Positions 3,573 through 16,201 of a stretch of DNA of 48,483 nt are shown here, in pieces. The DNA is from Gammaproteobacteria bacterium (GTDB lineage Bacteria > Pseudomonadota > Gammaproteobacteria > UBA9214): NCBI GenBank assembly GCA_029860045.1, contig JAOUBY010000007.1:1-48483 (forward strand). Direction: 5' to 3'. Below the pieces are notes generated by a model. The model saw only the letters and a list, made by a program, of their open reading frames with translations, was not told the origin of the DNA and did no database searches. Position 1 is the stretch's first letter. Each line of letters opens with the position of its first letter. Both the position numbers and the translations under genes were made by a program.

Positions 3573-5063
3573 TTATTGTTTGTTCCCAAGCACAATCGCG
3601 TTGCTGACCAGCTGGTGCACGCTGACAATGCTATCCATCTGGAAGCCGTAATAAGGCATTACCTTCGCGAACTGGCTCTTGCAGATGGCACAAATGGCTG
3701 CCATGTGGGTCACACCATGTTCCTCGACGACATGCTTCAGTGCCTCCATGCGTGGCAGGGCACCCTTGACGCGCAGCTCCATCAGGTCGTCGGTGAGCAG
3801 GCCGCCGCCACCGCCGCAACAGTAGGTTGCCTCGTGGATGGTGTCCTGGGGCATATCGTAAAAATGGTTGCAGCTGGCCTTGATGACTTCGCGCGGCAGG
3901 ATGAACTGTCCGCCAGGCATCGGGCCCATGCGCGAGGCGCGTGCCACGTTGCAGGAGTCATGATAGGTCAGCACCATGTCGTCATTGGCAGACTTGTCCA
4001 GCGTGAGCGCATCGCGCTGGATCAGGTCATAGGTGAATTCCATGATGTGCTGCGGTACCGGGTATTTCGGATCGAGAAAATCGAACGGCCCGGCCAGTGT
4101 ATTCAGGAAGCTGTACGCGACACGCCAGGCGTGCCCGCATTCGCCGAAGATGATGCGCTTCACGCCGAGATCAAGGGCGGCCTCGCGGATACGCATGGAT
4201 ACCTTGCGCATGTTCTCGTAACTGCCGATGAACATGCCGAAGTTGGCGGCCTCGCTGGCGTGTGAACTCAGTGTCCAGCTGATGCCGGCCTCGTGGAATA
4301 CCTTGGCATAGCCCATCAGGCCATCGACATGTGGTTCGGCAAAGAAGTCGGCTGATGGTGTGACGACCAGTACATCGGCGCCTTTTTCATCCACTGGTAG
4401 CCGCACCTTGACGCCGGTCTCGTCTTCAATGTCCTCTTCCAGTCCTTCCAGCGTGTCAACCAGCGCCGGTTCCGGCAGGCCGAGGTTGTTGCCGATCTTG
4501 TAGACCTTGCCGATGATCTCGTTGCAGTACTTCTGGCCCACGCCGATGGAATCCATCACTTCGCGCGCGGCCATGGAGATTTCCGCGGTATCGATACCGT
4601 ACGGGCAATACACGGAACAGCGTCGGCACTGGGAGCACTGGTGAAAATAGCTGTACCAGTCGTCCAGCACCTCTTTCGTCAGGTCGACGGCGCCGACCAG
4701 CTTGGGGAAATACTTGCCGGCAAAGGTGAACTTGCGGCGATACACCTTGCGGTACAGGTCCTGGCGCGCGACAGGCATATTCTTGGGGTCGGTGGTGCCG
4801 AGGTAATAGTGGCACTTGTCCGTACAGGCGCCGCACTTGACGCAGGCATCGAGGAACACAGCCAGAGAACGGTATTTCCCGTTCAGTTCTTCCATCTTGT
4901 CGTAGGCGACCTGCTGCCAGTTGTCGACCAGTTCACCCGGGAAGCCAAGCTGTTCCTGGAACTCTTCCTTGGCGACGAACGGCTTGCTGTGCGCCATCAC
5001 CCCTTCATGTACCTTCGGGATGATTGGGATTTCTTTCATCTCCGGTATTTCGTAATCAGCCAC
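3573..5063 (-). CDS. dsrK: DsrK, cytoplasmic HdrD-like iron-sulfur subunit
   Basis: A 496-residue protein with two ferredoxin-type clusters (CVKCGACTDKC and CSQCRRCSVYCP) followed by CCG-type cysteine domains (HDSCNVARAS; TYCCGGGGGL). The CCG cysteines resemble the non-cubane cluster site of heterodisulfide reductase HdrB/HdrD. DsrK is the probable site where DsrMKJOP interacts with the persulfide or trisulfide form of DsrC. It follows dsrM by 14 bases, so the M-K pair is one membrane module (cytochrome b plus catalytic Fe-S subunit). The length and every motif are normal for the family. Confidence 0.97.
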   Translation of the reverse strand: MADYEIPEMKEIPIIPKVHEGVMAHSKPFVAKEEFQEQLGFPGELVDNWQQVAYDKMEELNGKYRSLAVFLDACVKCGACTDKCHYYLGTTDPKNMPVARQDLYRKVYRRKFTFAGKYFPKLVGAVDLTKEVLDDWYSYFHQCSQCRRCSVYCPYGIDTAEISMAAREVMDSIGVGQKYCNEIIGKVYKIGNNLGLPEPALVDTLEGLEEDIEDETGVKVRLPVDEKGADVLVVTPSADFFAEPHVDGLMGYAKVFHEAGISWTLSSHASEAANFGMFIGSYENMRKVSMRIREAALDLGVKRIIFGECGHAWRVAYSFLNTLAGPFDFLDPKYPVPQHIMEFTYDLIQRDALTLDKSANDDMVLTYHDSCNVARASRMGPMPGGQFILPREVIKASCNHFYDMPQDTIHEATYCCGGGGGLLTDDLMELRVKGALPRMEALKHVVEEHGVTHMAAICAICKSQFAKVMPYYGFQMDSIVSVHQLVSNAIVLGNKQ

Positions 5064-5077
5064 GCTCTGCTCCTGGA

Positions 5078-5806
5078 TTATTTCTCAAGTTCCGCAGCCC
5101 ACGGAGCCAGGTGACGCTGTTCGCGCGGGTTATCCACCTGGTTGCGGGTCGGGCTGAAGAACACACCCGGTGCGTGCAGCAACTTGCTGACAGGGAAAAT
5201 GATCATCAATGACGCTACCAGTGCCAGATGGATCAGCAGTAGCGGGTCTTCCGGAATCGGTTGCCAGTTGAAATACATCAGCCCGAGGAAAAATGCCTTC
5301 AGGGCGACGATGTCGGTATGCGTTATGTAGTCCATGGACAAGCCGGTCAGGGCAATGGCCATCAGTAGCGCCAGCATCAGGTGGTCGGAGAGGGCGGAGA
5401 TATAACGCACCCGGTCAACCAGTACACGGCGTGCCCACAGTCCGGCCAGTCCTGCCGCCATGGCGAAAGCGGCATACAGCCCGAATGGCTGTATCAGCTC
5501 CACCCAGGTCCACACCGGGTTGGTGAAATAGCGCATGTGTCGCGCCAGCACCAGGAACATGCCGAAGTGGAACAGGTAGCCGAAAATCCAGATCCACTTG
5601 TTGGAGCGGAACAGGCTTTCAAAGAATGCGACCTCGCGGAACATGCGCAGTACCACGCCCTGGCGTGTTACCGGTGCCGGTGTGGTTGGTATCTTTAACG
5701 GCGCGGGTGTTTTTGCATATTTCCTGATCTTGTATGCCAGGCCACCAACCAGCAGGGCCGTGGCGACATAGAACAGCAATGCATAAACAATTGTCCAGAA
5801 CGACAT
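5078..5806 (-). CDS. dsrM: DsrM, NarI-like membrane cytochrome b
   Basis: A 242-residue membrane protein with five or six hydrophobic segments. It begins MSFWTIVYALLFYVATALLV and contains histidines within helices (HFGMFLVLARHMRYF) suited to haem b ligation, as in the NarI/HdrE family. It should anchor DsrK to the cytoplasmic membrane and pass electrons to or from quinone. ATG 5806 has a GGAG-like site upstream. The gap of 73 bases to dsrC holds no obvious hairpin, so it reads as part of the same transcript. Known A. vinosum-type operons have the same C-M-K order. Confidence 0.95.
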   Translation of the reverse strand: MSFWTIVYALLFYVATALLVGGLAYKIRKYAKTPAPLKIPTTPAPVTRQGVVLRMFREVAFFESLFRSNKWIWIFGYLFHFGMFLVLARHMRYFTNPVWTWVELIQPFGLYAAFAMAAGLAGLWARRVLVDRVRYISALSDHLMLALLMAIALTGLSMDYITHTDIVALKAFFLGLMYFNWQPIPEDPLLLIHLALVASLMIIFPVSKLLHAPGVFFSPTRNQVDNPREQRHLAPWAAELEK

Positions 5807-5879
5807 GCTTTCCGGCTCCTGGTGAAATTAAAAACGGGATGACTGCAAAGGAGCGAGCCCCCCTGCAGTCACCTGGGCG

Positions 5880-6215
5880 TTAGACGCAGCCGGTCGGCTT
5901 CGGCAGGCCGGCGTACTTGCAGGCCTGTTTTGCAGGGCCGTACGGGAACAGCTCGTACAGGTACTTGCTGTTGCCCTTGTCCTTGCCCAGTTTTTTGCCA
6001 ATGGCCTTGGTGAGCACGCGGACTGCAGGAGCGATCTGGTATTCCTCGTAGTACTCACGCAGAAAGTTGATTACTTCCCAGTGACTGTCGGTCAGTTCGC
6101 AATCATCAATCTTGGCCATGACGTCAGCAACGTCTTTGTCCCAGGTGTTCAGGTCAGCCAGGTAACCTTCTTCGTCCGTTTCATATGTCTTTCCGTTTGC
6201 TTCGATACTACCCAT
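5880..6215 (-). CDS. dsrC: DsrC, sulfur-carrier protein with two C-terminal cysteines
   Basis: A 111-residue protein of the DsrC/TusE family. The flexible C-terminal arm carries both conserved cysteines: Cys99 in QACKYAGLP and the penultimate Cys110 in PTGCV. DsrC accepts sulfur from the DsrEFH complex as a persulfide and presents it to DsrAB; the two cysteines can form the DsrC-trisulfide that links to DsrK. Both cysteines are intact, so this is the functional sulfur carrier. The paralog near 12.6 kb lacks them. It sits between dsrH and dsrM in the canonical order. Confidence 0.97.
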   Translation of the reverse strand: MGSIEANGKTYETDEEGYLADLNTWDKDVADVMAKIDDCELTDSHWEVINFLREYYEEYQIAPAVRVLTKAIGKKLGKDKGNSKYLYELFPYGPAKQACKYAGLPKPTGCV

Positions 6216-6259
6216 GTCAGGTCTCCTCGTTGGATGACGCTAGTTAATTGAAAATTAAA

Positions 6260-6556
6260 TCAGAGCCAGGACTGTGTCTTGTCGTTGGCTTCAACCAGAT
6301 CGACAAAGCCGGCATAGTCGATGACATCAATGCCGTCGGCCAGTTTGTCTTGTGAAATTCCGCGTGCGGCCAGGTCCGGGCCCAGTACAGAAACCTTCAG
6401 GCCATTCAGAAGGCTTGCGGCCTTGCCATTTTTCATCGCGCCGTAGACGCCATCTTCGATCAGCAACAACCGGTCACCTTCCTTCATGATGCCGGACGCG
6501 GTGTTCAGGTTGCCGGTGTCGTAGGGCGACTTGTTTACCAGATGTAACATTGCCAT
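6260..6556 (-). CDS. dsrH: DsrH, TusB-like subunit of the DsrEFH sulfurtransferase
   Basis: A 98-residue protein of the DsrH/TusB family (MAMLHLVNKSPYDTGNL; LLIEDGVYGA). It forms the hexameric DsrE2F2H2 complex that hands sulfur to DsrC. No cysteine occurs anywhere in this protein. Where characterised DsrH/TusB proteins often have a cysteine near residue 20, the sequence here is LNTASG. Only DsrE Cys78 is therefore available as the sulfur-binding residue in this complex. It is 17 bases downstream of dsrF. The family call is firm; the functional effect of the missing cysteine is inference. Confidence 0.94.
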   Translation of the reverse strand: MAMLHLVNKSPYDTGNLNTASGIMKEGDRLLLIEDGVYGAMKNGKAASLLNGLKVSVLGPDLAARGISQDKLADGIDVIDYAGFVDLVEANDKTQSWL

Positions 6557-6573
6557 TGTCTCAGCTCCCGCAA

Positions 6574-6981
6574 CTAGAAATTAAACAGCACGTCTTGCCC
6601 GGCAAGCACATCTGCCAGTTCGGCACGGCTGACCAGCCGGATGGAATCCTTTTCTGCGTAGTCCTCGTCCTCGTCTTCCCAGACCAGGTGCTGCAGGTCG
6701 TCCAGTGACAGGCCGCGTTCCTCGAGGGATTCCTTCTCGACATAGATCTTGGTGACCTCGAAGTCACCCAGCGCAGAGTAGGTCGGCGAGAAGTTCTTCA
6801 TGCCAATTCCGGTAGTGTCCTGGCCCTTGGTCAGCTGGTACACACCATCGTCCATAAACGTTACGCTGACGTCCTGCTCGAAGGCAGCGCCGATCAGCAC
6901 AACTTCCAGTGATTCCCAGGCATAGATCGTCCCGTAGGGTGCCTTGCGGTTGATGTACATAAATTTCTTTGCATCAGACAT
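6574..6981 (-). CDS. dsrF: DsrF, TusC-like subunit of the DsrEFH sulfurtransferase
   Basis: A 135-residue DsrF/TusC-family protein (KKFMYINRKAPYGTIYAWES; TFMDDGVYQL). DsrF is a structural and interaction partner in the DsrE2F2H2 hexamer. It has no cysteine, which is normal for this subunit. It lies 14 bases after dsrE and 17 before dsrH, so all three should be made together in the stoichiometry of the complex. The length fits the family. Confidence 0.95.
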   Translation of the reverse strand: MSDAKKFMYINRKAPYGTIYAWESLEVVLIGAAFEQDVSVTFMDDGVYQLTKGQDTTGIGMKNFSPTYSALGDFEVTKIYVEKESLEERGLSLDDLQHLVWEDEDEDYAEKDSIRLVSRAELADVLAGQDVLFNF

Positions 6982-6995
6982 TATCGTTTCCCCGC

Positions 6996-7388
6996 TCAGT
7001 CGCCGAACACGATCAGGCGATCGCTCTCGATACCACCCTCGACCAGCTGACCCAGTCCGGAAATGCGGAAACCGGGTGCGATGTTGGTCGCGTCCTTGCC
7101 GTTGCGCTCGGCCTCACCGTCATCGACGATGCCGCGGCGCTGGGCAGCTGCCACGCACAGCACCATGTCGATGTTGTGTGCCTCGGCCAGTTCACTCCAG
7201 CGCCTGACGATGTTGCGATCGTCCTGCGGCGGGGTGGTCAGACGCGTGCCGTTGTTCACGCCGTCGTGGTAGAAAAAGATACGAAAGATCTCGTGTCCTT
7301 TCTCCAGGGCGGCCTTGGCGAAATGATAGGCCGTGTCAGCGGACTGGTGCTGATACGGGCCCTCGTTAACCTGAATAGTAAGCTTCAT
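6996..7388 (-). CDS. dsrE: DsrE, active-site subunit of the DsrEFH sulfurtransferase
   Basis: A 130-residue DsrE/TusD-family protein. The conserved sulfur-binding cysteine is Cys78 in DMVLCVAAAQRRGI, the same position as the persulfide-carrying cysteine of A. vinosum DsrE. DsrE takes sulfur from upstream carriers (rhodanese/TusA in known systems) and passes it to DsrC. Only 12 bases separate it from dsrB. The presence of dsrEFH is a marker for the sulfur-oxidising version of the Dsr pathway. Confidence 0.96.
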   Translation of the reverse strand: MKLTIQVNEGPYQHQSADTAYHFAKAALEKGHEIFRIFFYHDGVNNGTRLTTPPQDDRNIVRRWSELAEAHNIDMVLCVAAAQRRGIVDDGEAERNGKDATNIAPGFRISGLGQLVEGGIESDRLIVFGD

Positions 7389-7400
7389 TCAGAATCACCC

Positions 7401-8474
7401 CTAGAAACGGATATGGGTTGAAGCGTTCAGGCTGGCACGGGCACCGCGCCAGTTATCGATGTGGTACTTGGTGAACGGCAGCCCGGTCTTTTCAAAGAAA
7501 CGCGGCCAGCCGATACGCTCGATCCAGTCATTCATGCGTTCCCAGTCCTTGGCGTCGTCCTTGTAGGTCTTGAGAATCTTCTTGACCACGGCGGTGGCTT
7601 CCGGCCAGCGCGGAGGGTTGTTCGGGATGCCGGAGGCGACCAGCTTCTGGAAGGTCGGCTTGCTACGGGCATTGGAGTGGTTGCCGCCAACCCAGATGGC
7701 CAGCTTGGAGTGTTCAGCATCGTTGATCTGCATCGGCGGGCAAGGCGGGAAGCAGGCGCCGCAGCAAATGCATTTCTTTTCGTCGACTTCCAGCGACGGC
7801 TTGCCATTGACCAGTGCCGGGCGAATGGCTGCAACCGGGCAACGTGCCACGACCGATGGACGTTCGCAGACATTGGACACCAGGTCGTGGTTGATCTTCG
7901 GTGGCTTGGTGTGCTGTACGTTGATGGCGATGTCACCCTGGCCGCCGCAGTTGATCTGGCAGCAGGAGGTGGTCATGTGCACACGGTTCGGCATGTTCCA
8001 GCCCTTAAATTCACCAATCAGCTCATCCATCATGGATTTGACCACGCCGGAGGCATCGGTGCCGGGAATGTCGCAGTGCAGCCAGCCCTGGGTGTGGGAC
8101 AGCATGGCGACCGAGTTACGGGTGCCACCGACCACATAGCCGGCATCGGTCAGCGCCTTGATCAGCGGCTCGACCTTGGCCTCGTCAGCAACCTGGTATT
8201 CGATGTTGCTGCGAATGGTGAAATGGATGTAACCCTCACCGTGCTTGTCGCCGATGTCACACAACTCGCGCAGGGTGTACACGTCAAGGATACGCTGGGT
8301 GCCGGCGCGCACGGTCCAGATCTTGTCACCGTTGTTGGAGACGTGAAGCAGGACGCCCGGTTGCGGGTCTTCGTGGTAGGCCCACTGACCGTAGTTCTTC
8401 CGCATTACCGGATGCATGTACTGGAACCCGTCAGGACATCCGGATTCAATTGGCGAACGCATTTCTTGTGCCAT
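7401..8474 (-). CDS. dsrB: DsrB, dissimilatory sulfite reductase beta subunit (reverse type)
   Basis: A 357-residue siroheme/Fe-S protein. Visible features are the cluster/siroheme cysteine group (TTSCCQINCGGQGDI followed by a distal CERPSVVARC) and an inserted ferredoxin domain (CICCGACFPPCPPM). Together with DsrA it forms the alpha2beta2 siroheme enzyme that oxidises DsrC-bound sulfur to sulfite in the cytoplasm. ATG 8474 is preceded by a GGAGAG-type site. It lies 85 bases after dsrA. Its length is normal. Confidence 0.97.
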   Translation of the reverse strand: MAQEMRSPIESGCPDGFQYMHPVMRKNYGQWAYHEDPQPGVLLHVSNNGDKIWTVRAGTQRILDVYTLRELCDIGDKHGEGYIHFTIRSNIEYQVADEAKVEPLIKALTDAGYVVGGTRNSVAMLSHTQGWLHCDIPGTDASGVVKSMMDELIGEFKGWNMPNRVHMTTSCCQINCGGQGDIAINVQHTKPPKINHDLVSNVCERPSVVARCPVAAIRPALVNGKPSLEVDEKKCICCGACFPPCPPMQINDAEHSKLAIWVGGNHSNARSKPTFQKLVASGIPNNPPRWPEATAVVKKILKTYKDDAKDWERMNDWIERIGWPRFFEKTGLPFTKYHIDNWRGARASLNASTHIRF

Positions 8475-8559
8475 GTGACTCTCCTGAGAAACTTTTCAAG
8501 TTATTGAACAAGTCCCGGCGCATATGCGCCGGGACTTGTTGTATCTGGGTATCTGTTGG

Positions 8560-9822
8560 TTAGGCGGAAGCTGCCTGCTCTTCAGCCTTGCGGGCAAACC
8601 ATTTCTCGGCTTCTTCGTCCCAGCCATCCATGCGGATGTAGGAGCTCTGGCGCGGGCTGCCGACCATGTTCGGGTCAACCTCGACGCCGATGCCTTCCAG
8701 GAAGTTAACCAGGCCGATACGCTCGATCATCTCACCGCAGCGCTCGTGCTCCAGGCCGTTCTCTGCCCAGAAATCGATGATCTCTTCGGCCAGTTCCTGC
8801 ATGCTCTCGTAGTCTTCCTCGGTTTCCAGCTTCTTGAACGGGACCACTACGGTACCCATCAGGTCGCCGATCTTCAGCGTGCGCTTGCCGCCGATGAGGA
8901 TGGTCACACCCTTGTCATCACCGGGATGCAGGGCGCGCGGCATCACGTTCAGGCAATGCATGCAGCGTACGCAGTTGTGGTTGTCCACGCTGATGGTGTC
9001 GTCGTCGTTCAGGCTGATGGCCTGGGTCGGGCAACGGGTAATGACATTATCCATGAGGTACTGACGACCTTTCTTCTCCAGGTAGTACTTGACTTCGTCC
9101 TGGTTGATCTTCATGTCGTCACGCCAGGTACCGATAATGGCGAAGTCGGAACGCTCGATTGCATTCTGACAGTCATTCGGGCAACCGGAGACCTTGAACT
9201 TGAACTTGTAGGGCAGGGCCGGGCGATGCACGTCATCGGTGAAGTTGTTCACCATCAGACGGTGAATGCCGTGCTCGTTGCAGTTGGACATTTCGCAGCG
9301 GGCGCCACCGACACAGGACATGGCGGTACGCACACACGGGCCGGCGCCGCCGAGATCAAAGCCATACTCGTTGATCTCGTCAAAGAAGTGCTGGGTGCCA
9401 TCGGTGGTGGTGCCGATGAACATGATGTTGCCGGTCTGACCGTGGAAGGTCACCAGGCCCGAACCATGCTTCTCCCAGCTATCGCCGAGCTGGCGCAGCA
9501 TGTCGGTGGTGTAGAAGTTGCCGGCCGGCGGCTGTACACGGATGGTATGGAATTCTTTTGACTCCGGGAAGGCATCACCGACCTCGGAGAAACGCGGAAT
9601 GATGCCGCCACCATAACCGTACACACTGACGGTGCCGCCTTTCCAGTAACCCTTGCGGGTTTCATAGGAGTGTTCCAGCTGCCCCAGCAGGCCATTGGTG
9701 ACGGAGTTAATACGCTCGTCCGGATGATCGTCACGCAGGCGCTTGATGCCAGTGATGAAGCTGGGCCAGGGGCCGTGCTCCAGTTCGTCCAGCATGGGTG
9801 TTGGGTAGGTGTTCTTGGCCAT
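8560..9822 (-). CDS. dsrA: DsrA, dissimilatory sulfite reductase alpha subunit (reverse type)
   Basis: A 420-residue alpha subunit. Cluster and siroheme ligands are visible in AMSCVGGARCEMSNC and SGCPNDCQNA, and a ferredoxin insert in NHNCVRCMHC. The gene opens the dsr operon. An in-frame ATG also exists at 9831, but the AGGAG site directly abuts it. ATG 9822 (MAKNTYPTPM) is 9 bases from that site and is the better start. The last residues are alanine-rich (EEQAASA). Expression must start in the 9.83-10.3 kb intergenic region. Confidence 0.97.
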   Translation of the reverse strand: MAKNTYPTPMLDELEHGPWPSFITGIKRLRDDHPDERINSVTNGLLGQLEHSYETRKGYWKGGTVSVYGYGGGIIPRFSEVGDAFPESKEFHTIRVQPPAGNFYTTDMLRQLGDSWEKHGSGLVTFHGQTGNIMFIGTTTDGTQHFFDEINEYGFDLGGAGPCVRTAMSCVGGARCEMSNCNEHGIHRLMVNNFTDDVHRPALPYKFKFKVSGCPNDCQNAIERSDFAIIGTWRDDMKINQDEVKYYLEKKGRQYLMDNVITRCPTQAISLNDDDTISVDNHNCVRCMHCLNVMPRALHPGDDKGVTILIGGKRTLKIGDLMGTVVVPFKKLETEEDYESMQELAEEIIDFWAENGLEHERCGEMIERIGLVNFLEGIGVEVDPNMVGSPRQSSYIRMDGWDEEAEKWFARKAEEQAASA

Positions 9823-9925
9823 GGCATTCATCTCCTGGATTGTTTTCTCTTACACCAAATATTTATTTATTCACTGTTTCAGCGCGCTGCCGCCTGCTGC
9901 GGGCAACCTGTGAAAATCAGTGAGT

Positions 9926-9938: not shown

Positions 9939-10190
9939 CTACAGTCCAACTCTCGATTAGCGCATTTTAGGGAGGCCGCACAAGTGAACATATCCTACCC
10001 TTGGGGTGGCGCGGATATAGGCCTGTATCCCGAACGGGGTATTGGTTTATTTATGATTTAATTTCCGTGAGTTAGTAATGGAACGCGACTAAATTAATAT
10101 GAGTAGAACTTTTTCTTATAGTCACGCGCACTTAATCAACATGTGCCGGAATCAGGTGAGCTTTGTTGCAGTAGATTCAGGCAATTAAAC

Positions 10191-10305: not shown

Positions 10306-11253
10306 ATGACACTCGTACCCGCAGCCGTACCCGGCTTCCAGCCCTTCGACCTTACTGCACACCGGGACTACGCGGCCTGGCGCGAGTGGAAGCTGGCACA
10401 ATATCCTGCAGCCGTGGCTGACCTGCTGGTACAGGTACAGGATCCGGCGCAACTGACTGCTGCGGAACATGCAGCATTGCTTGCCCGTTGTCGCAAGGCC
10501 AACATGGCAATCTACAGTGTCAGCAGCGGGCAGCCAGTCGACAAGGTCGGCATTCGCGCGCTCGGCCGCCAGTTCGGGCTGGAGCGGCTGGATATGAATC
10601 TGCGAGCGGACGAGGACAGCATCACCTCTATCCGGGTGGTGCCGGCATCGGCACAGACACATTACATTCCCTATACCAACCGCCCGTTGAACTGGCATAC
10701 CGACGGGTATTACAACAGCCTGGACGAGCAGGTGCGCGGTGTCGTGATGCATTGCGCGGCCGCCTCGGCCAGTGGTGGCGACAACCTGTTTCTGGACCCC
10801 GAAATTGCCTATATTCTGCTGCGTGATAAAGACCCGGATTTTATTCGTGTGCTGATGCAGCCGGACGTAATGACTATCCCGGCCAATGTCGAGCAGGGTC
10901 GGGAAATCCGCGCGGCGCAGAGTGGACCGGTGTTCTCCCTTGAAAAAGGCAGTCATGCCCTCCATATGCGTTATACAGCACGCACCCGCAGCATCATCTG
11001 GAAGGATGAACGTGCAGTGCATAATGCCATCGGTTTTTTGAGTGAATTACTCGACAGTGATAACCACTGGATCTTTCGGCATCGTTTGCAGGCCGGGCAG
11101 GGCATTATCTGCAATAATGTATTGCATAAGCGCGAGGCCTTTGCCGATGACACCGACCACACGCGTTTGCTGTACCGCGCACGCTACCATGACAGGGTTC
11201 GGGATACTGTGGCCGGTCAGGATTGTTACGGAGAGAGAGCATGCTCTGGTTGA
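10306..11253 (+). CDS. TauD/TfdA-family Fe(II)-dependent dioxygenase
   Basis: A 315-residue protein of the taurine/gamma-butyrobetaine dioxygenase fold. The iron-binding facial triad is visible: His131 and Asp133 in NWHTDGYY and distal His274 in NNVLHKREAF. Arg287 or Arg291 (HTRLLYRAR) is placed to bind 2-oxoglutarate. An AGGA site precedes ATG 10306. Its stop overlaps the next small ORF by 13 bases, and the Cas6-like gene follows, so the three form an operon. Lying divergent to dsr suggests a link to sulfur metabolism, for example desulfonation of an organosulfur substrate, but the substrate cannot be read from the sequence. A Fur-like box upstream would fit an iron enzyme. Confidence 0.82.
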   Translation: MTLVPAAVPGFQPFDLTAHRDYAAWREWKLAQYPAAVADLLVQVQDPAQLTAAEHAALLARCRKANMAIYSVSSGQPVDKVGIRALGRQFGLERLDMNLRADEDSITSIRVVPASAQTHYIPYTNRPLNWHTDGYYNSLDEQVRGVVMHCAAASASGGDNLFLDPEIAYILLRDKDPDFIRVLMQPDVMTIPANVEQGREIRAAQSGPVFSLEKGSHALHMRYTARTRSIIWKDERAVHNAIGFLSELLDSDNHWIFRHRLQAGQGIICNNVLHKREAFADDTDHTRLLYRARYHDRVRDTVAGQDCYGERACSG

Positions 11254-11432
11254 GTGAAGTTCTGTTACAACAGCATGGCCTCGATTCCTTCGAGGCATTG
11301 AAGCAGGCTGTCAGTGAGCGTGCACAGGCAGGTGAAATGCATTTTCGTATGGATGTGCGGCCACCGTTTCCCGATACCCCGGAAGACTGGGAAGATCGCC
11401 TGGAGGCGGCCTTTTACGCCGTGCAGAAATAG
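11241..11432 (+). CDS. Small conserved-looking protein in the dioxygenase/Cas6-like operon
   Basis: A 63-residue acidic protein (MLWLSEVLLQQHGLDSFEAL, ending AAFYAVQK). ATG 11241 has a good GGAGAGAG site and overlaps the end of the upstream dioxygenase gene by 13 bases, pointing to translational coupling. The middle contains a proline/aspartate-rich stretch (RPPFPDTPEDWEDR). I do not recognise a family. The tight overlap and the 21-base gap to the next gene argue that it is real and acts with its neighbours. Confidence 0.65.
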   Translation: MLWLSEVLLQQHGLDSFEALKQAVSERAQAGEMHFRMDVRPPFPDTPEDWEDRLEAAFYAVQK

Positions 11433-11453
11433 CCTGCGACAAACGGGTGAAAT

Positions 11454-12143
11454 ATGTTCTGGAATGATGAAAAAGAGGAAAAGCCGGGGTTCGTGATTCC
11501 GGATGACGTGATCGACCTGGCGTTCAAGGTCGCTTGTCCGACCCTGCCGCTGGATCATGCGCATGCGCTGTCATCGCAATTGCTCAAGGTTCTGCCCTGG
11601 CTGGAGGACGAGGCATTTGCCGGTGTGCACCTGATCCACGGTGCTGCTTCCGGCAATGGCTGGTATCGCCCGGAAGACACCGCCAATGAAATACTGCATC
11701 TGTCCAGGCGCACCCGCATGCGGTTGCGTATTCCCCGGCACCGCCTCGAGGATGCGCAGGGCCTCACCGGTTATACGCTGGATGTCGATGGCCATGCGCT
11801 GGAAGTTGGCGCATCCGATGTCTTTTTGCTTAGCAGTCTGTCCACGTTATTTGCACGCTATGTCATTACCGCTGCCGACACGGATGAAAATATTTTTCTC
11901 AATGAGGCGGCACGAGACCTGAAAGAACTCGGGATTCCGTGCCGCAAGATGCTGGGCGGCATCAGCCATACCATGCAGTTCCCGGATGGACCGGTGCATA
12001 CACGCAGCCTGATGGTGGCGGAACTGGAGCCGGAGCAATCGGTACGCCTGCAACAGGTCGGGCTTGGCGAGGGGCGCAGCATCGGCTGTGGTCTGTTCCT
12101 GCCGCACAAGGGGATCAAGGCGGTCAACGATGAGAAGGAATAA
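11454..12143 (+). CDS. Cas6/Cmx6-like RAMP-fold protein (stand-alone)
   Basis: A 229-residue protein resembling the Cas6/Cmx6 subgroup described for type I-MYXAN CRISPR systems. The N-terminal half has VACPTLPLDHAHALS, LPWLEDE and GVHLIHGAASGNGW; the middle has LSRRTRMRLRIPRHRLEDA. The C-terminus carries a glycine-rich loop, GLGEGRSIGCGLFLPHKG (residues 203-220), the hallmark of RAMP RNA-binding endonucleases. Histidines 36, 59 and 62 are catalytic candidates. Cas6 proteins cut CRISPR precursor RNA, yet no repeat array and no other cas gene is in this window. The gene sits in an operon with a dioxygenase next to dsr. It may serve distant arrays or have a different RNA-processing role. The family call comes from remembered motif similarity. 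Confidence 0.78.
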   Translation: MFWNDEKEEKPGFVIPDDVIDLAFKVACPTLPLDHAHALSSQLLKVLPWLEDEAFAGVHLIHGAASGNGWYRPEDTANEILHLSRRTRMRLRIPRHRLEDAQGLTGYTLDVDGHALEVGASDVFLLSSLSTLFARYVITAADTDENIFLNEAARDLKELGIPCRKMLGGISHTMQFPDGPVHTRSLMVAELEPEQSVRLQQVGLGEGRSIGCGLFLPHKGIKAVNDEKE

Positions 12144-12281
12144 CCCTGTGCACACAAGGGCGGCCGTTGACCACCTCCCTGACTGCCCATATGGGATATG
12201 TTCGCCTCCCGGGGGAGTGGCTATAGTTTCGCCTAACTGATGAATTAACAGAAGAATTACCTATATTTCGGAGACCGCGTC

Positions 12282-12485
12282 ATGAGTGAAAAACAGGAAA
12301 TCATCAAGAAACTGCTGGAAATGCAGAAAAAATTCATCGACATTGAGCATGAAAGCGGTGTCGAGATGAAGGACTATTTTGCTGCCGAAGACGGTCATCC
12401 GCTGAAGGGCTTCCGCCAGGAATACATGGACATGGCCAACAAGCTGGTCGACATGGCACATGAGGAGAAGGGCTCGCATCGCTGA
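12282..12485 (+). CDS. Small acidic helical protein of unknown function
   Basis: A 67-residue protein with no cysteine and no membrane segment. It is mostly charged and predicted helical (KQEIIKKLLEMQKKFIDIEH; QEYMDMANKLVDMAHEEKG). A GGAG site precedes ATG 12282, and a strong rho-independent hairpin follows, so it looks like a single-gene transcript with its own promoter in the 138-base gap upstream. I do not recognise the family. Its position between the Cas6-like gene and a DsrC-family paralog suggests it belongs to the dsr-associated gene set, which is inference. Confidence 0.75.
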   Translation: MSEKQEIIKKLLEMQKKFIDIEHESGVEMKDYFAAEDGHPLKGFRQEYMDMANKLVDMAHEEKGSHR

Positions 12486-12581: not shown

Positions 12582-12920
12582 TTAATAACCGCCTTTACGC
12601 GCGACGTACGGTAATCCTGCAATCTTGTTGCCCTGCTTGCTGGGTGCGAGCGGAAACAGTACATAGAGATCTTTACTGGTGACTTTCCTGCCCCAGATCT
12701 TGGACATGCCTTTATTGATTGCCCGCTCCATCGGCTGCTCACCGCCATTTTCAAGGTATTCCGTGCGCAGATAATTCAGCACATCAAAGTGTTCCTGGGT
12801 CAGCTCGATGTTATCCTCGGCGGCCAGCGCCCTGGCGATATCCTCATCCCAGGTGCCCGGATCAGTGAGGTTGCCGTTAGCGTCGGTCTCAATGCTCTTG
12901 CCATTTACTTCCAGTGCCAT
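12582..12920 (-). CDS. DsrC/TusE-family paralog lacking both redox cysteines (RspA-like)
   Basis: A 112-residue DsrC-family protein. The fold signature is clear (GTWDEDIARALA; LTQEHFDVLNYLR; DLYVLFPLAPSKQGNKIAGLP). At the positions of the two sulfur-carrying cysteines it has Asn (QGNKIAGL) and, at the end, Gly-Tyr (ARKGGY), and the protein has no cysteine. It cannot carry sulfur by the known chemistry. Such cysteine-less forms have been proposed to be regulatory (RspA). ATG 12920 is 7 bases from AGGAG; the upstream in-frame ATG at 12926 is too close to that site. It is monocistronic, about 2.8 kb from dsrA. Confidence 0.88.
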   Translation of the reverse strand: MALEVNGKSIETDANGNLTDPGTWDEDIARALAAEDNIELTQEHFDVLNYLRTEYLENGGEQPMERAINKGMSKIWGRKVTSKDLYVLFPLAPSKQGNKIAGLPYVARKGGY

Positions 12921-13138
12921 TTCCATACTCCTGGTTCAAGTTTAGAAAAGAAATTTCGGTGTGGAATTGTATTGCAATGTAACCGCTATCGGAAGAGGTA
13001 CAGATGCCACCGGGTAACCAGCCGGAAATGGCCCTGCCTGGGAGTATTCCCTTATGCTGACATTCATGGCGCACAGGTTCAGGGATGGTCGGGTTGCAGG
13101 TAAAATATTGATTTTAGGTGTCTCCGGGACGGTAATAC

Positions 13139-13645
13139 GTGCTGTATCAAGAATTCACTTTAAATAGTTCGGATAAGCTCAATTCCAGCCTGTACACCCG
13201 GTTCATGGAATTGTCCGGTAGCGACCGTATCAGGGAGACACATCACTTTGGTGGTCGCTTCGAGAATATCTATGTAGAGCTGGATGACATTCCGGAAATT
13301 GCTACGCTTCTGGTCGTGGTGAAGCAGCAGGCCGGCCAGTTGCTGGGTATTGCAACAGAAAGATTAAAGGCCGGGTTCTGGTTTAATGCCATGGAGGCAG
13401 GGCATCGGACCGGGCCGCATCACCACGATGAGAATGACGAGTTACTGTCGGCGGTGTACTACATTCGCGTACCGGAGAGTTCGGGTGACCTGATTCTGCA
13501 CGACGATGGCAGGCAGGTCATTATTCATCCGCAGGAAGGCAAGCTGGTGATGTTTGCGCCGGCTGTATTGCATGAGGTGACAGCCAATCTCAGTTCGGAG
13601 ATGCGCTTGTCTGTCGCTTTCAATGTGGGGCCGGTGGAAGGTTAA
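13139..13645 (+). CDS. Putative 2OG-Fe(II) oxygenase-fold protein
   Basis: A 168-residue cupin-like double-stranded beta-helix protein. Candidate metal ligands are the HHHDEND cluster (His94-Asp97) and His145 in PAVLHEVTAN. Arg156 in EMRLSVAFNV is the likely 2-oxoglutarate contact. Motifs such as AVYYIRVPESSGDL resemble the 2OG-Fe(II) oxygenase family PF13759. The predicted start is GTG 13139 and the ribosome site is weak, so the true start may be slightly different. It is one of four non-haem iron oxygenase-fold genes within 6 kb. The substrate is unknown. Confidence 0.7.
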   Translation: MLYQEFTLNSSDKLNSSLYTRFMELSGSDRIRETHHFGGRFENIYVELDDIPEIATLLVVVKQQAGQLLGIATERLKAGFWFNAMEAGHRTGPHHHDENDELLSAVYYIRVPESSGDLILHDDGRQVIIHPQEGKLVMFAPAVLHEVTANLSSEMRLSVAFNVGPVEG

Positions 13646-13672: not shown

Positions 13673-14344
13673 TTAAACATCCGACCACATGCGTACCAGG
13701 TTGATGTAGGCGTGATTGACCTGTTGTGTTTCGGGTGCGTCCGAACTTTTCTGTAATAATGCCTCGCGCGCCAGGTTGAGTTCGTGCAGCAGGGCGCGTT
13801 GCTCGGGGCTGCGTATCATGCTCTGGATCCAGCTAACGGCAACCAGCCGTTCGCCGCGGGTGACCTCGGCAACCCGGTGAATGCTCGATGAAGGATATAA
13901 TACGGCGTCGCCGGCCGGCAGCTTGACCTGCTGCTCGCCGAAGGCGGTCTGGATGCACAGTTCGCCGCCATCATAACTGTCCGGCTCACACAGGAAGACG
14001 GTGACCGACAGGTCGGAACGGTACAGTTCGCCCTGGCCCATGACCGGGTCGTCGACATGCGCACCGTAGGACATGCCGGCATTGTAGCGTGCGTAGTAGG
14101 GTGCCGCGGTCTTCAGCGGCATGGCGGCACTGCGAAATACCGGGTGTTTCACCAGGCTGCCCATGACGAGATTGTTTAGTTCGGAAAAACGCGCCGGGTC
14201 GAGTGACAGTTCCTCGTTGAGTTTGACGCGCCGTGCCGCCTTGCCTGCGGATTCCCGGCCATCAGCAAAGCGGCCCGTAGCAATCAGCGCAGTCACCTGC
14301 TGCAATTGTGCATCGTCGAGTACTTTTTCAATGTGGGTAAGCAT
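13673..14344 (-). CDS. PKHD-type Fe(II) dioxygenase, YbiX/PiuC family
   Basis: A 223-residue prolyl-4-hydroxylase-like protein. Iron ligands are His96 and Asp98 in YGAHVDDPVMG and His156 in SSIHRVAEVTRGER; Arg166 is the 2-oxoglutarate contact. Length and motifs match the Fe2+-dependent dioxygenase family that includes E. coli YbiX and Pseudomonas PiuC. Relatives are often next to TonB-dependent siderophore receptors and iron-regulated, but no receptor is near here. It converges on the 13139 gene with a 27-base gap. Confidence 0.85.
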   Translation of the reverse strand: MLTHIEKVLDDAQLQQVTALIATGRFADGRESAGKAARRVKLNEELSLDPARFSELNNLVMGSLVKHPVFRSAAMPLKTAAPYYARYNAGMSYGAHVDDPVMGQGELYRSDLSVTVFLCEPDSYDGGELCIQTAFGEQQVKLPAGDAVLYPSSSIHRVAEVTRGERLVAVSWIQSMIRSPEQRALLHELNLAREALLQKSSDAPETQQVNHAYINLVRMWSDV

Positions 14345-15589: not shown

Positions 15590-16201
15590 TCAGGCAAACA
15601 CGACCCAGGTCGTGGCAATGTATTTCACACCCTCTTGCAGGGTGGAGCCGCGATGCTCGTGCGTCCAGAATGGCGGGAACAGCAGCAGTTTGCCGGCTTC
15701 CGGGCGGACTTGCACATCCTGGTACGAGAAATCCGTGGTGCCGCCCGGACCGTCAACGCCGTTCAGATACCAGACTGCGACCAGCTGGCGCTGGCTGAAT
15801 TCATGGCTGCCACCGTCGATATGCCAGTGATAGAACTCGCCCGGGTTGGTGCGCTGGATAGCATAACCACTGTCCTTGAACGGCCCCTTGAAAAAGGGGT
15901 AGGCATCACGAAATTCCTGGATGGCGAGACCCAGCGAACGAAACAGTTCGCGATCGATGTCTTTCCAGTGTGCCTTGCCGCTGACGACCAGGTCAGTGGA
16001 GCGCTTGATGTTCTGCTCTTCCTGTATGGTCTGGCCTACACGCCCGGCATATTGTTCGTCTTCGCTGGCCTCGAAACGCCGGATCATCTCCTTGCAGATA
16101 TCCAGTGGCAAGGCGCGCTGTTTCTCGAAGATGAAACTGAGTGGTTTTACTTCCCGGATGCTGCGCAGTGGCGTGACCGGTGCGGGAGGTGTCTGTTTCA
16201 T
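15590..16201 (-). CDS. 2OG-Fe(II) oxygenase family protein
   Basis: A 203-residue prolyl-hydroxylase-like protein. The facial triad is visible as His127 and Asp129 in YHWHIDGGSH and His181 or His183 in FWTHEHRGS; Lys193 (EGVKYIATTW) may bind 2-oxoglutarate. It has no signal peptide, so it is expected in the cytoplasm. It is the middle gene of a three-gene leftward operon, between a Sfum_1244-like protein and an acetyltransferase. Modification of a peptide or small molecule is possible but cannot be deduced. Confidence 0.82.
   Translation of the reverse strand: MKQTPPAPVTPLRSIREVKPLSFIFEKQRALPLDICKEMIRRFEASEDEQYAGRVGQTIQEEQNIKRSTDLVVSGKAHWKDIDRELFRSLGLAIQEFRDAYPFFKGPFKDSGYAIQRTNPGEFYHWHIDGGSHEFSQRQLVAVWYLNGVDGPGGTTDFSYQDVQVRPEAGKLLLFPPFWTHEHRGSTLQEGVKYIATTWVVFA

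Follow-up and report, generated by a model that had tools for sequence, protein, structure and literature searches.

A single-copy Cas6 homologue accompanies the reverse-Dsr genes of Gammaproteobacteria

A single-copy Cas6 homologue is a companion of the reverse-Dsr (rDsr) system across Gammaproteobacteria, mostly without CRISPR genes. We lean, by a modest degree, toward the interpretation that it is a domesticated RAMP-fold Cas6, separated from CRISPR immunity, which has become a permanent accessory to sulfur oxidation by reverse Dsr in this class. The tie of Cas6 to rDsr stands on comparative evidence, and an action on RNA is inferred from the fold and the retention of residues.

The locus and its Cas6 homologue

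The window (the whole stretch of DNA that was analysed, 48,483 nucleotides) contains the following features.

3573-8474, minus strand: dsrB, dsrE, dsrF, dsrH, dsrC (with two C-terminal cysteines), dsrM, and a dsrK-type Fe-S protein
8560-9831, minus strand: dsrA, oxidative-type sulfite reductase alpha (TIGR02064, 641 bits)
10306-11253, plus strand: TauD-family Fe(II)/2-oxoglutarate oxygenase (profile and residue conservation), 315 residues, very likely dsrQ
11241-11432, plus strand: ORF63, 63 residues, conserved
11454-12143, plus strand: dsr-associated Cas6 homologue, 229 residues (PF09559, TIGR02807, PDB 8fcj_B)
12186-12203, plus strand: CCCATATGGGATATGTTC element upstream of ORF67, resembling a conserved ACCCCATGGGTAGGATATGTTC block upstream of dsrA
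12282-12485, plus strand: ORF67, small conserved protein downstream of cas6
12582-12926, minus strand: DsrC homologue lacking both C-terminal cysteines and ending in KGGY (PF04358, 1.3e-29), referred to as dsrC2

The dsr operon extends below position 3573 in the window. The end of the tauD gene and the start of ORF63 overlap by 13 nt, the gap between ORF63 and cas6 is 21 nt, and about 474 nt lie between the starts of dsrA and tauD. With the start of dsrA at 9831 and its reading direction on the minus strand, the tauD-ORF63-cas6 operon is divergent from dsr. The original prediction had placed these three reading frames correctly, and the tight co-directional arrangement that it described, divergent from dsr, agrees with these distances. 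The observation was real, yet understated: throughout the class, the gene has been conserved next to dsr or together with it.

Four different Fe(II)/2-oxoglutarate oxygenase-type genes are located within about 6 kb beside dsr (10306-11253, 13139-13645, 13673-14344, and 15590-16201), and several of them hold their position in other genera. At the element upstream of ORF67 there is a CCCAT(A)TGGG palindrome with GGATATGTTC after it, and a similar form is upstream of dsrA (approximately 9985-10010, minus strand). The CCCATATGGGATATGTTC element has one exact match in the window and is conserved in the family alignments. Both palindrome elements are family-conserved and may represent the site of a shared regulator.

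The 229-residue protein is, as judged from its sequence, a genuine Cas6 homologue. It matched the Pfam profile PF09559 (Cas6) with an E value of 2.9e-63 (213.8 bits; cut-off 26.7) and the NCBIfam model TIGR02807 (cas6_cmx6) with 141.3 bits (cut-off 98.85). Both full-length matches are above the curated cut-offs, which confirms the Cas6/Cmx6-like assignment made earlier, and a PADLOC search likewise supports it. The closest solved structure by sequence is chain B of 8fcj, the Cas6 of a type I-B CRISPR-associated transposon, to which phmmer aligned residues 16-219 (204 residues; E = 3.8e-12). This Cas6 was deposited as type I-B CRISPR-associated, in other words as part of a CRISPR effector system. 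No phage or viral relatives were found.

The C-terminal glycine-rich RAMP loop, GLGxxRxxGCGxF, is present in the dsr-type Cas6. In the alignment, G203, G205, and G213 are found in nearly all of the 81 core dsr rows and in all eight CRISPR rows. H35 of the "DH" motif, by sequence a catalytic-type histidine, is kept in 83 of the 85 dsr-type rows and in seven of the eight CRISPR rows; the corresponding position in 8fcj chain B is occupied by Asn. Comparison with CRISPR Cas6 thus suggests that the putative catalytic residue is retained. H35 is replaced in two dsr-type members, by Tyr in L117 and by Asn in L137; therefore, cleavage may not be universal. H59 is missing from seven of the 85 sequences. 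H35, R92, R135, Q200, and the G-loop are common to the dsr-type and CRISPR proteins, and W3, the G69-W70-x-R-P insert, H59 (mostly), R86, E145, K165, G169, and the PHK tail are specific to the dsr group. It should be mentioned that the AlphaFold model, built from two sequences, had a pLDDT of 44.6 and was too poor to view the active site or to judge the two-ferredoxin fold.

Co-occurrence with dsrA and the conserved module

The distribution was analysed in 369 genomes drawn evenly from Gammaproteobacteria. PF09559 was found in 118 of them, about a third and in effect one copy each, and dsrA in 119, a count that takes in matches above the cut-off plus fragments. Both were present in 111 genomes, Cas6 alone in seven, dsrA alone in eight, and neither in 243 (Fisher p = 7e-75, a value that ignores phylogeny). 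The respective numbers for Cas6 and Cas1 were 50, 68, 85, and 166, which gives no association (p = 0.13, likewise ignoring phylogeny). In view of this property of the p values, the loci themselves were inspected. In the host family, 17 of 23 genomes have PF09559, in single copy and together with dsr. The cas6 of one genome (G021) consists of two overlapping pieces (L062:4094-4731), owing to a frameshift or an assembly error.

All seven of the Cas6-only genomes (L094 and L108-L113) carry the module genes tauD, ORF63, dsrC2, or ORF67 beside cas6, and in most cases the contig is short or the locus lies at its end. Six loci of the eight dsrA-only genomes were inspected (L118-L123): most of the contigs break off where cas6 would be expected or close to that point, and one of these ends right after ORF63. 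The other two genomes, G101 and G259, have dsrA fragments only. The exceptions among the inspected loci are, in other words, mostly contig breaks at the cas6 locus. The gene is present even in reduced genomes of about 1 Mb. A phylum-wide draw, from which the sampling of non-gammaproteobacterial rDsr genomes is not evident, brought in four further members that are divergent and linked to dsr. Even in the four members that differ most (33-37% identity), cas6 faces dsrA.

In the usual layout, the dsr operon is divergent from tauD(dsrQ)-ORF63-cas6, which is often followed by the cysteine-less DsrC homologue and ORF67. Of 58 loci, 48 have ORF63 and 46 have tauD in the same direction as cas6, with a divergent dsr operon in 42-47. 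When the class loci were viewed with 8 kb on either side, dsrA was nearby in 34 of 40; two of the others run off the contig and four have moved. Comparison of neighbourhoods across dsr genomes thus shows that the tauD-ORF63-cas6 order is widely conserved.

The TauD-family protein is not a TauD equivalog, and its H131-x-D133...H274...R287 residues are invariant in 59 homologues. A TauD-like gene located upstream of and opposite to dsr, as here, is the dsrQ of Lenk et al. 2012, according to PMC7596348, which cites that work; the present tauD gene is very likely dsrQ. ORF63, which belongs to no Pfam or NCBIfam family and for which the c-di-GMP-binding domain of PilF was the only PDB match, a weak one (E about 0.1), occurs in 106 of the 369 genomes. 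Of these, 105 are among the 118 Cas6-positive genomes, and the remaining one, G145, has dsrA on a contig that ends there. ORF67, also without a Pfam or NCBIfam family, lies downstream of cas6 in about 40 loci. In most other genera dsrC2 directly follows cas6 on the same strand. In 56 of 58 places its final 14 residues are free of cysteine, unlike those of the DsrC of the dsr operon, which has both C-terminal cysteines. About 18 loci have a further gene between ORF63 and cas6, whose product of about 237 residues has no Pfam match (e.g., L066:8689-9399, minus strand).

About eight lineages, scattered across the Cas6 tree, have cas6 at a distance from dsr (L073/L136, L097, L139, L100/L102/L144, L135, L137/L138, L140, L141/L142/L146/L147, and L148). 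All genomes with a moved cas6 remain dsrA-positive. In G131, G345, and G247, whose genomes are 1.4-1.6 Mb, each of dsrA, ORF63, and cas6 has a location apart from the other two, and none has been lost. This retention of cas6 and ORF63 after separation from dsr speaks for a shared function rather than mere hitch-hiking. The neighbours of the moved cas6 in L097, L100, L102, L073, and L135 include dusA, rnc-era, rlmB, and an obg-like gene, the last named from sequence only; such RNA- or ribosome-related neighbours could be due to chance. Other moved copies adjoin galU, a glycosyltransferase gene, or a sulfur transporter gene, as in G064, in which the neighbour encodes a Sulf_transp (YeeE/YedE-type) transporter (L148:7733-8998, plus strand).

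The dsr-type cas6 genes are under purifying selection, with dN/dS values of 0.12-0.28 among close pairs. Without phylogenetic correction, the pairwise divergence of Cas6 tracks that of TauD (Spearman rho 0.79) and ORF63 (0.70), and that of dsrA less closely (0.31).

Relation to CRISPR systems

The host assembly (2.4 Mb in 156 contigs, 90.6% complete) has one Cas6 copy by profile search, that of the window, and gave no match to Cas1 or DevR/Cas7. Two Cas10-palm matches in the host genome are GGDEF cyclases, not Cas10. Cas1 was found in none of the 23 genomes of the host family. As had been predicted, there is no array in the window, in which a repeat scan detected only tRNA ends and one 23-nt direct-repeat pair. 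The cas3, cas8/cmx, cas7, and cas1 genes expected near the cas6 of a type I-MYXAN system are missing from the neighbourhoods of the dsr-linked loci.

In a quick tree, the 85 dsr-type sequences occupy one side of a branch (SH-aLRT 99) and eight CRISPR Cas6 the other, namely seven I-MYXAN-annotated cyanobacterial proteins and that of 8fcj. The natural reading of this tree is an origin of the family in CRISPR systems with recruitment afterwards; this is not proven, because rooting on the CRISPR rows was a choice. The cyanobacterial type I-MYXAN Cas6/Cmx6 proteins belong to the same family over the full length at 23-30% identity and have the DH histidine, R92, and the G-loop in common with the dsr type. 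They mostly adjoin cas3, cas8a1/cmx8, and others, whereas the dsr-type genes adjoin rDsr. The G-W insert (69-73), W3, R86, and the PHK tail further distinguish the dsr type.

The original prediction had left room for a crRNA nuclease acting on a distant array. A working crRNA-maturation nuclease that serves arrays in trans, its dsr location being incidental, would account for the similarity to Cas6 over the full length and for the preserved DH histidine and G-loop, and the NCBI model does name the protein I-MYXAN Cas6. However, Cas1 is missing from the host genome, from its family, and from 68 of the 118 Cas6-positive genomes, and the co-occurrence is with dsrA instead. The dsr-type branch is also separate from CRISPR Cas6, and the window lacks CRISPR-like repeats. 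This explanation is largely refuted, and we regard it as highly improbable. Since Cas1 is unassociated and dsrA associated, the NCBI label "type I-MYXAN Cas6/Cmx6" is misleading for the 229-residue protein.

Possible roles in sulfur oxidation

The original prediction of a domesticated RNA-processing endonuclease tied to sulfur oxidation stands in part. The sulfur tie is strongly supported by the near-perfect dsrA co-occurrence and the conserved neighbourhood; the RNA-processing half is still inferred, with the DH histidine and G-loop kept and no substrate found. In the proposed mechanism, the dsr-type Cas6 would bind, and probably cleave, a specific RNA, and would thereby control how much of a transcript or another RNA required during Dsr sulfur oxidation is present, or how it matures. 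DsrQ and ORF63 might be its partners, perhaps with an oxygen/2-oxoglutarate input, and the cysteine-less DsrC is a possible sulfur-status input. A bolder form of this model, which we put forward only tentatively, is that core energy metabolism took over a CRISPR crRNA endonuclease in a single recruitment event and that the DsrQ-ORF63-Cas6 module processes a specific non-CRISPR RNA and thereby controls Dsr sulfur oxidation across Gammaproteobacteria, with DsrQ sensing oxygen/2-oxoglutarate.

Strong hairpins are found in the dsrA-dsrB spacer (8475-8559, minus strand) and the dsrC-dsrM spacer (5807-5879, minus strand). They occur in most loci, and their structure, not their sequence, is conserved over many genera. 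As Cas6 substrates they were rejected: they are missing in reduced genomes in which cas6 persists (L091, L093, L098, and L099) and present in dsr loci in which no cas6 was found (e.g., L118-L119). An Rfam search of the window gave tRNAs only.

That these candidate hairpins do not track cas6, leaving no RNA substrate found, weighs against the domesticated accessory that we favour, as does a possible history of co-transfer shared by cas6 and dsr; the rho values are not phylogeny-corrected. The protein might instead be a catalytically dead regulator that, rather than cutting its target, binds to it (dsr mRNA or a small RNA) and so determines translation or stability, a possibility to which we give perhaps one chance in a few. 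The loss of H59 and, in the two members above, of H35, while the fold landmarks stay, is consistent with it, and the lineage-specific W3, G69-W70 insert, R86, and PHK tail may reflect a changed binding surface; yet the 98% conservation of H35 otherwise is above what would be expected for a general loss of cleavage.

Two further explanations appear unlikely to about the same degree. Cas6 may act on tRNA or rRNA, for example in 2-thiouridine metabolism, rather than on dsr mRNA. DsrEFH/DsrC are homologous to the tRNA-thiolation relay TusBCD/TusE (PMC3397948), and dusA, rlmB, and rnc-era are among the neighbours of moved cas6; however, this neighbour pattern is post hoc and comes from few relocations, and the copies beside galU, a glycosyltransferase, or a sulfur transporter do not conform to it. 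The fold could also have taken on a role that does not involve RNA, for instance as a protein partner of DsrQ or DsrC. The fact that no RNA substrate was found and the strongest divergence covariation, which is with TauD and ORF63, would suit such a role, but H35, R92, R135, and the G-loop, common with CRISPR Cas6, are among the residues kept.

No paper joining Cas6 with dsr was found in the searchable literature, the scope of which leaves out most subscription papers, including Lenk 2012; PMC7596348 has 0 occurrences of Cas6. The family membership is already known, and the CRISPR-free, pathway-bound role appears undescribed in searchable papers.

rDsr is a main sulfur oxidation route in marine, sediment, and symbiotic Gammaproteobacteria. 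The present findings would correct the "type I-MYXAN Cas6/Cmx6" annotation, which would make many sulfur oxidisers seem to be CRISPR carriers. If the favoured interpretation is true, the dsr-type Cas6 would add a new example of CRISPR-type proteins with work to do beyond immunity, and a layer of control, likely at the RNA level, would be added to the regulation of Dsr.
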